A DNA stretch of 47,767 nt from a virus: the IMG/VR virus record IMGVR_UViG_3300043313_001243, positions 1-47,767 of that record; one strand, written 5' to 3'. This document shows, piece by piece, positions 2,188 to 35,651 of this stretch (position 1 is the stretch's first letter; the number at the start of each line of letters is the position of its first letter). Below the pieces are notes generated by a model that ran no database searches, had not been told where the DNA came from, and saw only the letters and a list, made by a program, of their open reading frames with translations. Both the position numbers and the translations under genes were made by a program.

Positions 2188-2613
2188 GTGGCACCGACCC
2201 CTGAAGTCAATCGCATGCGGTTCGCGCAGTTCGTCGCGCGGACCCTCGCCGGTGCGCGCGACCGCGGCATGACTGACCGGGACATCCACGCCGCGACCGG
2301 GGTCCCGCCGAGCACCTTCCATCGCTGGCAGAAGGGGCAGGTCGCCACCGCGCCCGACCTCGACAAGGTCAAACGCTTCTGCGAAGGGCTCGGCGTCAGC
2401 GTCACGGCCGCCATGACCGCGCTCGGCCTGGCGCCCGGCCGCGACACCACCGAACCGGAGCCGCCGCTCCCGCCGGAGATCCGCACCATCCTGCGCCGGC
2501 TCGCCGACCCCAACGTCCCGGAGTCCGACAAGCTCGTCATCCGGGAGATGCTCAGGATGCTCGCGCAGCAGGCCCGGCGCACCGAGCCGCCGCCACGGGA
2601 GGGGACAGCCTGA
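2188..2613 (+). CDS. Lysogeny repressor candidate with Xre-type HTH (141 aa)
   Basis: GTG 2188 is chosen because TACCGT lies six bases upstream and because the region before it is not protein-like; ATG 2215 is possible. Residues about 10-75 hold a lambda-repressor-type HTH (GMTDRDIHAATGVPPSTFHR then WQKG), recognition helix around PPSTFHRW. The C-terminal part is a Pro linker plus a helix (VPESDKLVIREMLRMLAQQA) that could dimerise. The TGA overlaps the integrase ATG (TGATG), coupling repressor and integrase expression. It is divergent from the early operon across the 1924-1966 operators. Together with int this forms the immunity/integration switch. Confidence 0.75.
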   Translation: MAPTPEVNRMRFAQFVARTLAGARDRGMTDRDIHAATGVPPSTFHRWQKGQVATAPDLDKVKRFCEGLGVSVTAAMTALGLAPGRDTTEPEPPLPPEIRTILRRLADPNVPESDKLVIREMLRMLAQQARRTEPPPREGTA

Positions 2614-3851
2614 TGGCGCGCAAGCGGCAGCCGGTCATCAGCAAGGGCAGCGACGGGCAGTTCCACGCCTGGGTGACCGTCGGCACCAAGACGAACGGCC
2701 GCCCCGACCAGCGTCACGTCAAGCGGGCCACGGAGGCCGAGGTCGAGGAGCGCGTAGACGAGCTGCTCGACCAGGTGCGGGCGGGTGCGGTCGTCAAGGC
2801 GGGCCGCGGGATGACCGTCGAGCAGTGGCTGACGGTCTACCTGGAGACGGTCGCGCCGCGCCGCTGCGACCCGACCACGATCTACGACTACCGGTCCAAG
2901 ATGCGCAACTGGGTGTATCCGGTCGTCGGCGGCGTCCGGGTGGATCGCCTGCGGCCCGACCAGCTCGACGAGGTGTACCTGCGGATGGCGCGCGCGGGCA
3001 AGGCTGACAGCTCGACGTTGAAGGTGCACCGCATCCTCACCCGCGCCCTGGAGATCGCGTTCCGGCGGGGTCTGGTGCCGCGCAACGTCGCGAAGCTCAT
3101 CGACTCGCCCACGGTGAAGCGGGTCGAGATCCTGCCGCTGAGCGAGGCCGAGGCCGTCGCCGTGCTCGACAAGGCGATCGCGTCGCGTCGGCGCAACACG
3201 GCCCGCTGGTCGGTGGGGCTGGCGCTGGGCCTGCGTCAGGGTGAGGCGCTCGGCCTGCGCTGGCCGTACGTCGACCTGGAGCGCGGCGAAATCCGGGTGT
3301 GGTGGCAGCTGCACCGGCGAGCGTTCGAGCACGGCTGCGGCGGCACGTGCGGGCGCCGTCGCGGCGGGAACTGCCCGGCGAAGGTGCTGCCGCTGCGCTC
3401 CGGCGAGCAGGTCGCGACGGGCGGGCTGATCCTCAAAGAGCCGAAGGGTAAGAGCAAGCGGACGATCCCGATCCCGGTCGAGCTCGTCGAGGCGCTGAGG
3501 GTGCACCGGGAGGTGCAGGGGTTCGAGCGGCAGTACGCCGAGTCGGCCTACCTGAAGCACGGGTTCGTGTTCGCTCACCCCGACGGCCGGCCGCTGGACC
3601 CGGGTGACGACTTCGACGACTGGAAGGGTCTGCTCGCCGCGGCGGGTGTGCGTGACGCGCGGGTGCACGACGGGCGGCACACAGCGGCGACGCTTCTGCT
3701 GGCGCAGGGCGTGCGGCTGGAAGTGGTGCAGGAGATCCTCGGCCACTCCGACATCCGGGTGACGCGGGGCTACTCGCACGTGGCGTCGGCGATGGCCCGG
3801 GCGGCGACCGACGGCATGGGCGCGGCGCTGCTGCGCAAGCGGCTACCGTGA
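2613..3851 (+). CDS. int: Tyrosine recombinase, phage integrase
   Basis: 412 aa, ATG coupled to the repressor stop. Order of domains: basic N-terminal arm-binding region (1-65), core-binding SAM-like domain (about 67-165), catalytic domain (about 175-400). Catalytic residues visible: Arg208 (GLRQGEALGL), His352 and Arg355 (HDGRH), His378 (LGHSD) and nucleophile Tyr387 (TRGYSHV); Lys276 or nearby is the likely beta-hairpin lysine. A Cys-rich insert at about 240-256 (HGCGGTCGRRRGGNC) is common in actinobacterial integrases. It would recombine attP at 4600-4650 with a tRNA-Thr(CGT) gene; the arm repeats at 4505-4526 and 4720-4741 are the expected N-domain sites. Confidence 0.95.
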   Translation: MARKRQPVISKGSDGQFHAWVTVGTKTNGRPDQRHVKRATEAEVEERVDELLDQVRAGAVVKAGRGMTVEQWLTVYLETVAPRRCDPTTIYDYRSKMRNWVYPVVGGVRVDRLRPDQLDEVYLRMARAGKADSSTLKVHRILTRALEIAFRRGLVPRNVAKLIDSPTVKRVEILPLSEAEAVAVLDKAIASRRRNTARWSVGLALGLRQGEALGLRWPYVDLERGEIRVWWQLHRRAFEHGCGGTCGRRRGGNCPAKVLPLRSGEQVATGGLILKEPKGKSKRTIPIPVELVEALRVHREVQGFERQYAESAYLKHGFVFAHPDGRPLDPGDDFDDWKGLLAAAGVRDARVHDGRHTAATLLLAQGVRLEVVQEILGHSDIRVTRGYSHVASAMARAATDGMGAALLRKRLP

Positions 3852-3856
3852 CCGCC

Positions 3857-3895
3857 ATGCCCAACCTGACGGCAGCCGGGAGGCTCGCGCGATGA
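3857..3895 (+). CDS. Possible 12-aa leader peptide coupled to next gene
   Basis: ATG 3857 encodes MPNLTAAGRLAR and stops with a TGA that overlaps the ATG of the DUF5662-like gene (ATGA at 3892). The Shine-Dalgarno of the downstream gene (GGGAGG) lies inside this mini-frame. It may serve translational coupling from the integrase transcript, or may be chance. Confidence 0.3.
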   Translation: MPNLTAAGRLAR

Positions 3896-4515
3896 CCAGC
3901 TACGACAGCGTCCCCGACACGCTCAAGCACTCTCTGCGCGTCGGCAGGCTGATGGGCCAGCCGATCCGTGAGCTGGTCACCCGGTCCACAGAGCACGACC
4001 ACAGCAAGACGGTGATGCCGGAGCAGAGCGTCTTCGACGAGTTCACACCGAAGTTGAAGCACAGCACGTACGGCAGCGACGAATACAAGGGCTTCCTGGC
4101 TGCCATGAAGGTCGGGCTGGACCACCACTACGCGAGCAACCGGCATCACCCCGAGCACTTCGGCGAGGCCGGAATCAACGGCATGACGCTGGTCGACCTC
4201 ATCGAGATGCTGGCCGACTGGAAGGCGGCCACCGAGCGACACGACGACGGCAGCCTCTCGAAGAGCCTCACGATCCAGAAGGAGCGCTTCGGGATCTCCG
4301 ACCAGCTGCTCCAGATCCTGGAGAACACGGCCCGCTGGTTCGAGTGGCTGGACTGCGGCGCCGAGCACACCGCGCCGGACGGCACCAAGATGCGATGCAA
4401 CTTTGGAGCCCACCAGCCGCACGCTCTGCACTGCGACGGCCGGTTCGAACCGTACGACTGGCCGGTGACGGAAGGTGATGCACCGGTCGGTCGCGAGGCG
4501 GCCAATACACCCTGA
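3892..4515 (+). CDS. DUF5662-like protein (207 aa)
   Basis: ATG 3892 with GGGAGG 8-9 nt upstream. The sequence has the His/Asp-rich pattern of the DUF5662 family found in phages and bacteria: EHDHSK near residue 35, LKHSTYGSDEYK at about 57-70, then DHHYASNRHHPEHFGE at about 77-95 and GMTLVDLIEMLADWKAATER at about 100-120. The spaced H and D residues suggest a metal-binding, HD-like helical enzyme, but the substrate is unknown. The C-terminal region has Cys residues (LDCG, MRCN, HCDG). It sits between int and the attP core; the last codons overlap the first arm-type repeat. Likely a lysogeny-expressed accessory gene. Confidence 0.75.
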   Translation: MTSYDSVPDTLKHSLRVGRLMGQPIRELVTRSTEHDHSKTVMPEQSVFDEFTPKLKHSTYGSDEYKGFLAAMKVGLDHHYASNRHHPEHFGEAGINGMTLVDLIEMLADWKAATERHDDGSLSKSLTIQKERFGISDQLLQILENTARWFEWLDCGAEHTAPDGTKMRCNFGAHQPHALHCDGRFEPYDWPVTEGDAPVGREAANTP

Positions 4516-4548
4516 CGTACACCCTTGATCTTCACGGAGATCACGAAG

Positions 4549-4590
4549 AAGGCCCCGTGACCTTGGCTTAACGCCTGGTCACGGGGCCTT
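4549..4590. terminator. Strong bidirectional terminator hairpin
   Basis: Perfect 14-bp stem AAGGCCCCGTGACC (4549-4562) with its complement at 4577-4590 and a 14-nt loop. It lies 33 bp after the stop of the DUF5662-like gene and would end rightward transcription of the repressor-int transcript before the attP core. Confidence 0.75.
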
Positions 4591-4600
4591 CCGCTTACCC

Positions 4601-4646
4601 GAGCCGCCTGACGGAATCGAACCGTCGACCTACGCATTACGAGTGC
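4601..4646 (-). pseudogene. 3' half of tRNA-Thr(CGT), att core identity block
   Basis: Read on the minus strand this is anticodon loop CTCGTAA, the 3' side of the anticodon stem, variable loop AGGTC, a perfect T arm (GACGG TTCGATT CCGTC) and acceptor 3' strand AGGCGGC plus T. The 5' acceptor strand (expected GCCGCCT) and the D arm are absent, and upstream bases give a mismatch in the anticodon stem. It is therefore the partial tRNA carried by the phage to restore the host gene on integration, not a functional tRNA. Confidence 0.85.
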
Positions 4647-4766
4647 CTCCGAAGTTCCTGCACCACTATGCGTAGCCTGCAAATGTGTACCCCTGCGCAA
4701 GGGTGCGCAACGCTATGCAGTACACCCTGGGGTACACCCTGCCCCCTGTACGCAGGGTGACCACCG

Positions 4767-5165
4767 CTAATTCCCGCGCATCAACCGATGGGCGATCACG
4801 CGCGCCGACTCGATCGACTCGGAGTCGAGCCCACTCGCCCCACTCCCCCGCCGTTCCGACTCCAACGCATTCAGCCGCGCCTCGATCGACTCGAAACATC
4901 GGACCGTGCATTCCTGGGCGGCGTCGAAGCGCCGGCAGACCATGTGCACGGCGTAGACGGTGAAGAACGCGCCCCACACGATCGTGCAGGCGACCCGCAT
5001 GGTGATGACGGCCTGCTCGGCGGCGGGCCCGCCGGTCGCGTGCATCACCTGCACGACGATGGTTGCAGTGGTCAGGATCAACGCGAAGTTGAGGACCCTG
5101 TAGTGGGCAGGCGCCGGGGAGTGGTGCGGCGCGGGGATCTGCTCTTCGGTGTCCGGCATCGACAC
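4767..5165 (-). CDS. Two-TM membrane protein with charged C-terminus (132 aa)
   Basis: GTG 5165 has TGGAGG about 6 nt upstream. Hydrophobic segments at about 24-44 (VLNFALILTTATIVVQVM) and 56-78 (ACTIVWGAFFTVYAVHMV) are followed by a charged helix (FESIEARLNALESERRG) that may form a short coiled coil. Reads toward attP and ends close to the right arm repeats. No family recognised. A membrane protein beside attP and opposite to the structural genes could be a lysogenic-conversion or superinfection-exclusion gene, which is inference only. Confidence 0.6.
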   Translation of the reverse strand: MSMPDTEEQIPAPHHSPAPAHYRVLNFALILTTATIVVQVMHATGGPAAEQAVITMRVACTIVWGAFFTVYAVHMVCRRFDAAQECTVRCFESIEARLNALESERRGSGASGLDSESIESARVIAHRLMRGN

Positions 5166-33329: not shown

Positions 33330-34961
33330 TCAACTCATCACGATGACCTTGCGGCGCACTCGCGGCCTCGGCCACACCCCGGCGGCGGTGACGTCGCCCG
33401 CAGCCTCGTTGGCGAGGATCGACGAGACGGTGCCGTCGATCTTCTGCTGCTGCGACGGCTTGCCGAGCACGTACCGCATCCCCGGCCGGGCCAGCTTGCG
33501 GGTGTTACGGATCATGACCGCGATCTGCGCGTCACCGTCGTGCGTAAAGCCGGTGTCGGCCTTGACCACGTCGGTGTGCAACCGCACCGCCGCGGCGTGC
33601 ATCTGCGTCAGCCGGTAGGTCTCCCAGCGGATGACGACCTTCTCGCCGTACCGGGCTTCCCAGTCCTGACCCTCGGACTTCCAGCCTGGCGGGTCGTAGT
33701 AGAACCGGCCGACCAGGAACGTCTCGAAGATCTCCTCGACGGCCGCGGCGACCTCGAGTCGTGGCACCTGCCCGCCGTGCTCGGCCGGGTTCCAGATGCA
33801 CGGGCGCCGGTCGGGGCCGTACCGCGGGGTGAACTGGTAGCCGTCCTCGGTCTGCAGCCGGATGGCCGTCCAGTCGTCGGTGTCGGAGCCGTCGAAACCA
33901 CCGACCACCGCAGTTCCGGCCGGAACGTCCCGCGGACGCGCCCGGGCGTCCCACAGGTCACCGTCGAGCCACGAACCGGCGCCGTAGACGATCATGTTGC
34001 CGAAGAATCGCTGCGCCTGGCTGATGTCGCGGGCCGCCAGGTCGGCGGCCTCGGCCTCGATCGAGTCGAGGTCGATGTGCCCGCCGCGGGACTTCAGCGA
34101 GTCGCCGTAGACGATCCGGTGAATCCGCCGGCGCTCGACCTTGTTGCCATACGACAGGTTTCCCGGCGCCTGCACGAAGTCGCGCAGGATGTCCTCGGCC
34201 GGCGACTCGTACTGCAACTGCGCCACGGACGCCTCGGCCGGATCCCAGCCGTTCGTCGTCAGGCCGGCGCGGCCGCCCATGCCCGCGAGGCCGCGGTACT
34301 GCGTGTCGGCCACCTTGAGCATCTTGTTGACGGCGCTCCATAGGCCGACCTCGTCCTGCGCGGCGAACGTGATGCGCTGACCGAGGCGGGACTGCGCCGA
34401 GCTCGTCACCGTGCTGATCATCCCGCCGCCCGGCAGACGGATGAACTCCTCGCCGGTGCGCGGGATGATCTCGGCGAGTGGCCCGTACTCGATCATCGGC
34501 CGCAATGCGTCGTAGATGTTGCCGGTCTGCTCCTCCGAGAGCGCGGTGACCTGGATCAGCGGTGTCGGCCAGGGCCGGCCCATCGGCTCGCCCGGCTCGT
34601 ACTCGTAGACGAATCCGCAGCCGCAGCCGTGGTCGCGGCAGTCGTAGACCTCGCCACCGACTGCCCAGCCCGCGAATAGAACCGGACCGACACCCTCCGC
34701 GCAGATTTGCGCGGCCGTGAGCGGACCTTTGCCCCACTTCTGCGGGCGCACCAGCAGCGAGCGGCGGTACCGAAAGGCGGGTGCCAGCTGGCCAATCTCG
34801 GCGGCCGGCTTCAGCTCGTAGTGGCCGTCGAAGAAGCGCAGCTGCTCGTCGTAAAGCCGGAACTGCTTGCCGCGATCGTCCCGGTCCGGGATGACGCAGT
34901 GCGCCTCGATCCAGCAGGAAACGAGCGTCCCGAGCGACGGCCTACTGGCCGGCGGCGCCAC
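33330..34961 (-). CDS. terL: Terminase large subunit
   Basis: 543 aa, GTG 34961 overlapping the small-subunit end by 20 bases. ATPase: Walker A-like RPQKWGKG (72-79), a variant common in actinophage TerL, and Walker B ITFAAQDE (197-204), coupling LTTNGW near 233. A Cys-rich insert (DCRDHGCGCG, 107-116) is unusual. Nuclease domain: GGFDGSDTDDW (353-363) and later DGDAQIAVMIRN supply acidic residues. It packages DNA into proheads through the portal and cuts concatemers, probably at a cos site upstream of the small subunit. Confidence 0.9.
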   Translation of the reverse strand: MAPPASRPSLGTLVSCWIEAHCVIPDRDDRGKQFRLYDEQLRFFDGHYELKPAAEIGQLAPAFRYRRSLLVRPQKWGKGPLTAAQICAEGVGPVLFAGWAVGGEVYDCRDHGCGCGFVYEYEPGEPMGRPWPTPLIQVTALSEEQTGNIYDALRPMIEYGPLAEIIPRTGEEFIRLPGGGMISTVTSSAQSRLGQRITFAAQDEVGLWSAVNKMLKVADTQYRGLAGMGGRAGLTTNGWDPAEASVAQLQYESPAEDILRDFVQAPGNLSYGNKVERRRIHRIVYGDSLKSRGGHIDLDSIEAEAADLAARDISQAQRFFGNMIVYGAGSWLDGDLWDARARPRDVPAGTAVVGGFDGSDTDDWTAIRLQTEDGYQFTPRYGPDRRPCIWNPAEHGGQVPRLEVAAAVEEIFETFLVGRFYYDPPGWKSEGQDWEARYGEKVVIRWETYRLTQMHAAAVRLHTDVVKADTGFTHDGDAQIAVMIRNTRKLARPGMRYVLGKPSQQQKIDGTVSSILANEAAGDVTAAGVWPRPRVRRKVIVMS

Positions 34962-35484: not shown

Positions 35485-35651
35485 TCACTCCTCAGCCGCA
35501 TCGCGCGGCAGCGGGTGGCCATCACGTCGCGTGACAGTCCGTAGTCGTTCCGTGCACTTTGACCCTGCGGACCAGCGGGAGCCCTCCCCGGCGGTCCCTG
35601 GCTCCCCGGGCTGAGGGGGTCACCCCCCACCCCTTGTCACGCTGGGTGACG
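35485..35651. other. Non-coding region, candidate cos / terminase-binding site
   Basis: No plausible gene in 167 bp. It contains a perfect palindrome GGGGGTCACCCCC (35615-35627) and an inverted pair GTCAC (35636-35640) / GTGAC (35646-35650), plus several GC-rich direct repeats. Location between HNH-endonuclease genes and the small terminase subunit is where cos sites of siphophages lie. I cannot identify the overhang. Confidence 0.35.

Follow-up and report, generated by a model that had tools for sequence, protein, structure and literature searches.

Organization of the locus

The DNA analysed here, called the window throughout, is an entire virus record of IMG/VR, 47,767 bp long and classed as linear, from a phage predicted to have a Micromonospora-like host. 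A tyrosine integrase of 412 aa (2613-3851, + strand; PF00589, E 1.8e-22; phrog_1, E 7e-57) is directly preceded by a helix-turn-helix regulator (2023-2613, + strand; Pfam HTH_23, E 8.5e-6, and PHROG transcriptional repressor families). Divergent to the integrase gene, int, is a candidate Xis/RDF, a 97-aa helix-turn-helix protein of the HTH_17 type (1704-1997, - strand; Pfam PF12728, E 2e-8). Homologues of this protein occupy the equivalent spot upstream of int in six related loci (L002, L003, L004, L008, L041 and L112), and it is likely to be Xis. Six residues of the integrase, R208, K278, H352, R355, H378 and Y387, are invariant when the protein is aligned with those of relatives (eight sequences), and we take their role to be catalytic. 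The N-terminal ~60 residues are conserved in the same alignment, Pfam giving only the SAM-like and catalytic domains. Around residues 240-255, a Cys-rich insert (HGC...C...C-P), invariant in the eight aligned proteins, is possibly metal-binding.

Between int and the attachment site lies a DUF5662 ORF (3892-4515, + strand; PF18907, E 5.7e-33), the TGA stop of which (4513-4515) falls within the first arm repeat. The int stop codon itself lies within the P arm (the protein ending in ...TP*) in L002, L003, L004, L008, L010, L034 and L041; the DUF5662 gene of the window is inserted exactly between int and attP, and uses the arm stop that the int of these relatives uses. On the far side, the P' arm is adjoined by a 132-aa ORF (4767-5165, - strand) with a weak resemblance to DUF5134, under the family cut-off.

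The P arm (4505-4526, + strand) is made of the direct repeats ATACACCCTG (4505-4514) and GTACACCCTT (4517-4526), and the P' arm (4720-4741, + strand) of two copies of GTACACCCTG (4720-4729 and 4732-4741), both with a period of 12 bp. The four copies of the GTACACCC(T) motif are two pairs with a single orientation throughout 4505-4741. The pattern TACACCC-N5-TACACCC has exactly two matches in the 47,767 bp, both of them the attP arms, and none when the window was shuffled 100 times by dinucleotides; comparing one 150-bp flank with the other gives a best 23-mer match of 20/23, the top of 100 shuffles being 18. Enclosed by the arms are a terminator-like hairpin (4547-4592), a core of 46 bp (4601-4646) and a P' module (4644-4719), a spacer of constant length, aligned in 11 elements, with TGCA-type repeats that are candidate Xis sites. 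The gap from the second left repeat to the core is 74 bp, and that from the core to the first right repeat 73 bp. The initial annotation, made from the sequence alone, had placed paired repeats 12 bp apart and 70-75 bp off the core, exactly as they stand; the repeats themselves are present as well, except that the first left copy begins ATACACC and not GTACACC.

A nucleotide search of the attP region against annotated phage records returned one match, in an unrelated Xanthomonas phage, where a tRNA-Thr gene matches the core and nothing else. Taken as a whole, the description of 4505-4741 as an unrecombined attP was largely right, and we hold with high confidence that it belongs to a temperate phage with a lambda-type (arm- and core-binding) tyrosine integrase, a predicted Micromonosporaceae host and tRNA-Thr(CGT) as its target.

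Target gene and probable site of exchange

Read on the - strand, the core (4601-4646) is the part of tRNA-Thr(CGT) that runs from the anticodon arm to the 3' end, so that it is antisense on the + strand. A search of host genomes located the identical 46 bp in a complete tRNA-Thr(CGT) gene of Micromonospora chokoriensis (G001; L037:1466-1542), which bears out the target that had been predicted, the 3' end of this tRNA. When the host 5' part is joined in silico to the phage core at the anticodon loop, ARAGORN recognizes a whole 75-base tRNA-Thr(CGT); it recognizes no tRNA in attP alone, in the reciprocal junction or in the whole 47,767-bp window. The encoded CCA of the host gene is replaced by CGG in the phage block, so that the tRNA of a lysogen would need CCA addition, an established step at tRNA 3' ends.

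Unrelated elements at tRNA-Thr(CGT) share this block up to TTACGAG, or about one base past it, and then diverge. Because identity between elements ends at this complement of the anticodon loop, or a few bases beyond, the loop (CTCGTAA, 4637-4643, - strand; TTACGAG on the + strand) would be the 7-bp overlap region, and the crossover is likely to take place there. Identity from the loop up to the 3' end of the tRNA, together with the tRNA rebuilt in silico, places the site among the tRNA islands of the anticodon class, for which the overlap region is described as the loop (PMC4383910).

Integration can be pictured as follows. The paired arm repeats, with their 12-bp spacing, would be bound by the N-terminal domain of Int (2613-3851), and strands would be exchanged within the anticodon loop of tRNA-Thr(CGT), 7 bp that attP and attB have in common. 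At one junction, the host 5' half and the phage 3' half would form a complete tRNA-Thr(CGT), followed by the phage terminator-like hairpin, which would substitute at the rebuilt tRNA for the displaced host hairpin; at the other, the displaced host 3' half would adjoin the P' arm. The likely directionality factor is the HTH_17 protein (1704-1997), which perhaps acts via the TGCA repeats of the P' module. In two places (L010/L029 and L028) elements of differing arm types (GTACACCC and TGTCCTCA) are adjacent at one tRNA-Thr(CGT), which makes this gene an integration hot spot.

Relatives that share the arms

A scan for relatives across 84,980 species genomes gave three loci, two of them in Micromonospora, and among 300 Micromonosporaceae genomes 73 have an integrase match with E <= 1e-40. 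In the integrase tree, built from 39 of 40 rows (L010, with a partial integrase, was omitted), the window groups with L002 (98/98) within a group of 11 members (support 93/90) whose targets are tRNA-Thr(CGT), Thr(TGT), Met(CAT) or Arg(TCT). The arm motif that the initial annotation had predicted for the integrase recurs beside these related integrases, as expected if it were the arm-binding site of Int. The exact 18-letter arm pattern GTACACCCTNNNGTACACCCT has 11 matches in 9 of 354 genomes of the family, the reversed control having none; eight are beside tRNA genes or fragments, one is in a CRISPR-like array, and two (in G223 and G017) are without a tRNA recognized by eye or by ARAGORN. In the last two (L100 and L108, respectively) the arm pairs are followed by a similar stretch, perhaps a relic or another target. 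Allowing one mismatch was tried and abandoned in favour of the exact pattern: 332 of the 354 genomes then matched, and the matches listed were mostly unrelated. The CRISPR-like array, in G211 (L101, ~1345-1562), has a repeat spacing of 61-62 bp, and one of its spacer-like stretches contains the P' arm, which points independently to the arm as part of an invading element.

The attL and attR to be looked for in related prophages are seen in two genomes. The integrated form in G001 has a complete tRNA-Arg on the int side and the displaced half at the far end, 30 kb apart; that in G002 is spread over two contigs, one with a complete tRNA-Thr(CGT) and the other with int and, next to it, the displaced 3' half. 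A second clade of integrases, found at tRNA-Val(TAC), Ser(CGA/GGA) and Phe(GAA), has an arm pair of its own, (AAC)TGAGAC(C/G), mostly also with a period of 12 bp and at the int stop codon, in 13 of 40 loci (L047, L050, L052, L053, L056, L058, L059, L061-L064, L066 and L069).

Constant and variable spacings

The geometry was compared over 11 P and 11 P' entries, that is, the loci in which the core is readable and the arms are recognizably of the GTACACCC type, drifted forms included; the set excludes other arm types (L005-L007, L009, L023, L026, L027, L030, L031 and L033) and L032, which has a GTAC(G/A)CCC P arm and was recovered without an integrase. Measured from where the anticodon loop ends, the P' arm is 76-77 bp away in all 11 elements (five at Thr(CGT), one at Thr(TGT), four at Met and one at Arg). 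The distance between the loop and the second P repeat is 120, 121, 118, 119 and 118 bp in the window, L008, L010, L041 and L042, 96 bp in L004, 74, 74, 74 and 73 bp in L003, L045, L046 and L034, and 62 bp in L043. All six elements with a P distance of at least 96 bp have a hairpin (z -4.7 to -8.1); among those with a shorter one, L003, L046, G001 (= L034) and G027 (= L043) have none, and L045 (74 bp) has a fold z of -3.2 across a stretch that includes the arms. The P distance varies between 62 and 121 bp, mainly because a terminator-like hairpin adjoins the tRNA 3' end, and the symmetry noted in the window is thus a coincidence due to the length of the hairpin: it exists about the 46-bp block and vanishes about the likely crossover, with the second P repeat 120 bp away on one side and the P' arm 76-77 bp away on the other. 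No clear multiple emerged by eye when the P distances (62, 73-74, 96, 118-121) were considered for helical phasing.

The tRNA target changes in this small natural series while the arms and the P' geometry are constant, so that core specificity can be told apart from arm specificity. The relatives suggest an integrase lineage that moves among tRNA genes with the remainder of the site unchanged, the type of site itself being well known. When integrase domains were compared with targets, all four domain ranges were more similar in pairs sharing a target, so that no one target-choosing domain is singled out. On the P side the loop reads CTNNTAA in 11 of 11 elements (tRNAs for A-initial codons), a regularity noticed post hoc on four distinct tRNAs. 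This leads us to put forward, tentatively and at somewhat under even chances, that a single integrase lineage retargets by swapping the core alone, among tRNAs with a CTNNTAA loop (U36-A37-A38), the arm motif and the 76-77 bp P' spacer being kept constant and each element replacing what it displaces, be it a 3' half with its hairpin, a 5' half or an entire tRNA. If true, integrase retargeting within a defined tRNA subset would become predictable. At a more practical level, the arm motif, core and target are now mapped for a Micromonosporaceae phage integrase, and could serve an integration vector.

The hairpin and three apparent ways of sparing the tRNA

The hairpin between the P arm and the core, absent from the initial annotation, is a perfect 15-bp inverted repeat (4548-4562/4577-4591) with a 16-bp stem in the fold (fold z -6.8 and -6.5). 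A scan around attP for sigma-70-type promoters and T-run terminators found neither, the hairpin included. Out of 40 loci, 27 have a T-arm-like motif, and four of these were set aside (L007, with the motif inside the arm; L034, a 5'-half carrier; L035, inverted; L054, without an ARAGORN tRNA); of the 23 int-adjacent tRNA 3' ends that are left, 20 have a fold z <= -3, and the three exceptions (L003, L046 and L053) indicate that the hairpin is not obligatory.

A stem-loop terminator between core and arm is reported for mycobacteriophage CrimD with no link to a tRNA (PMC3203893), and the hairpin of the window might simply serve int or the DUF5662 gene, which lie directly upstream of it, and have nothing to do with the tRNA. 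We find this rather unlikely in view of the G002 element, in which the hairpin (z -6.0) immediately follows the rebuilt tRNA, at the end distal to int, and the int side has none (z 0.0); the 5'-half carrier G001 also lacks one on the int side. More generally, the arm-to-core or arm-to-tRNA stretches that contain no tRNA 3' half are without a hairpin in three cases out of three (z -1.0 in G001, 0.0 on the int side of G002, -0.1 in G027). On the host side, a hairpin follows the tRNA at the empty site, attB (z -7.4, the window's own being -6.5), and the displaced host fragment in G002 retains its hairpin (z -5.4). The hairpin tracks the tRNA 3' end and not int. It may be a replacement for the terminator of the tRNA, and elements that insert at the 3' end of a tRNA may bring a terminator of their own.

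The relatives appear to spare their target in three ways. The window and most relatives carry the 3' half with a hairpin. G001 carries the 5' half: its element spans 30 kb, each end has a copy of the block CACGCGCCCGTAGCTCAGCGGATAGAGCAGGGGACTTCTAAT, and the tRNA-Arg(TCT) is complete at the end near int; such a carrier would need a putative phage-supplied promoter. The third way, a whole tRNA gene, is found on a 3.7-kb contig of G027 (C129; L112/L103, 2139-2430), where a tRNA-Thr(TGT) abuts the int stop and, after int and this tRNA, P and P' arms surround just a short anticodon-arm core. Pattern searches for a host tRNA-Thr(TGT) in the G027 assembly gave only the copy beside int, or nothing. 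With G027 as a candidate, tRNA-dependent lysogeny may extend beyond Mycobacterium and Gordonia. The same was considered for the window phage and rejected, since the window contains no tRNA and its target tRNA is rebuilt in silico.

Free, circular or integrated

The terminase gene (33330-34961, - strand) lies ~620 bp from a probable genome end (cos) upstream of it, at position 35584. In related contigs the terminase is repeatedly 0.5-0.7 kb from the contig end, and the BLAST coordinates of L122, L124, L125, L126 and L129 begin at window position 35584 (L124 and L125, with identical match coordinates, may be one phage), those of L121 and L127 beginning ~11 bp away. These recurrent contig ends point to a defined genome end, which is read through in the window and also in L120, L123 and L131. 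The two ends of the window are neighbours in relatives: the L002 homologue of a gene at 45.2-46.4 kb ends ~3.1 kb from xis, the same ~3.1 kb that separate them across the window ends, and the matching gap in L025 is 4.4 kb. No convincing gene spans the window ends in a search for ORFs across them, and the gene order of relatives was used for circularity instead. Reading through cos, together with an intact attP and ends that are neighbours in relatives, argues for a circularly permuted, near-complete and unintegrated form.

The initial annotation had likewise concluded that the phage is free or circular, and two arms about one core agree with it, to which the joined cos and the ~3.1 kb spacing in a relative now add; a tandem prophage or a concatemer would look alike. 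Indeed, where two tandem prophages meet, or two units of a replicating concatemer, the sequence is that of attP, and the two contigs with side-by-side elements at tRNA-Thr(CGT) indicate that such arrangements deserve consideration. However, the record has no host junction and the data do not need a tandem, and we judge this origin improbable. That the segment is attL or attR of an integrated prophage, with host DNA on one flank, is far more improbable still: related elements do integrate, with attL and attR observed, but here paired arms lie on both sides of one core, phage genes stand on either side (int 5', the P'-side ORF 3'), the window ends are neighbours in relatives, and the host tRNA gene adjoining 4650 that the initial annotation had named as the mark of such a junction is absent, the window being without any tRNA. 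The record is best read, from its sequence, as a circularly permuted, near-complete genome with a joined cos and an intact attP.

Comparison with known systems

Paired arms, cores of 30-45 bp, hairpins adjacent to arms, crossovers in the anticodon loop and islands carrying 5' fragments are all published already; about the present Micromonosporaceae attP, we found no literature among open-licence papers. Among the closest counterparts is the attP of mycobacteriophage CrimD and its Cluster K1 relatives, described with two short arm-repeat pairs about a common core, an adjacent int and a stem-loop terminator between the core and one arm pair (PMC3203893). It differs in that the CrimD core is in tmRNA, with exchange near the T-stem, whereas the target here is a tRNA anticodon loop; its P3/P4 repeats are inverted relative to P1/P2, whereas the four repeats of the window are all direct; and its attP is reported 5' of int, that of the window being 3' (PMC3203893). 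Another is the AICE pACPL of Actinoplanes SE50/110, a related actinomycete, with a 43-nt identity with a tRNA 3' end and two flanking 21-nt repeats that its description compares with the arm-type sites of pSAM2 (PMC3364876). It differs by its tRNA-Pro, its repeat sequence and its nature, that of a conjugative element and not a phage (PMC3364876).

The tRNA-dependent lysogeny described for other phages has in common with the window a tyrosine integrase, paired arm sites and a host tRNA (PMC10865867). The relative in G027, which carries a tRNA-Thr(TGT) of its own along with a short core, resembles that system, while the phage of the window, unlike those described there, rebuilds the tRNA and encodes none (PMC10865867). 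Finally, the window is like the class A (anticodon-loop) tRNA islands of Islander, for which the crossover is assigned to the anticodon loop; 3' fragments are far commoner there than 5' fragments (3760 vs 159 islands) (PMC4383910). On the features reported for that class we see no difference in kind, and the window is a further instance of it, with its arm sites mapped (PMC4383910).
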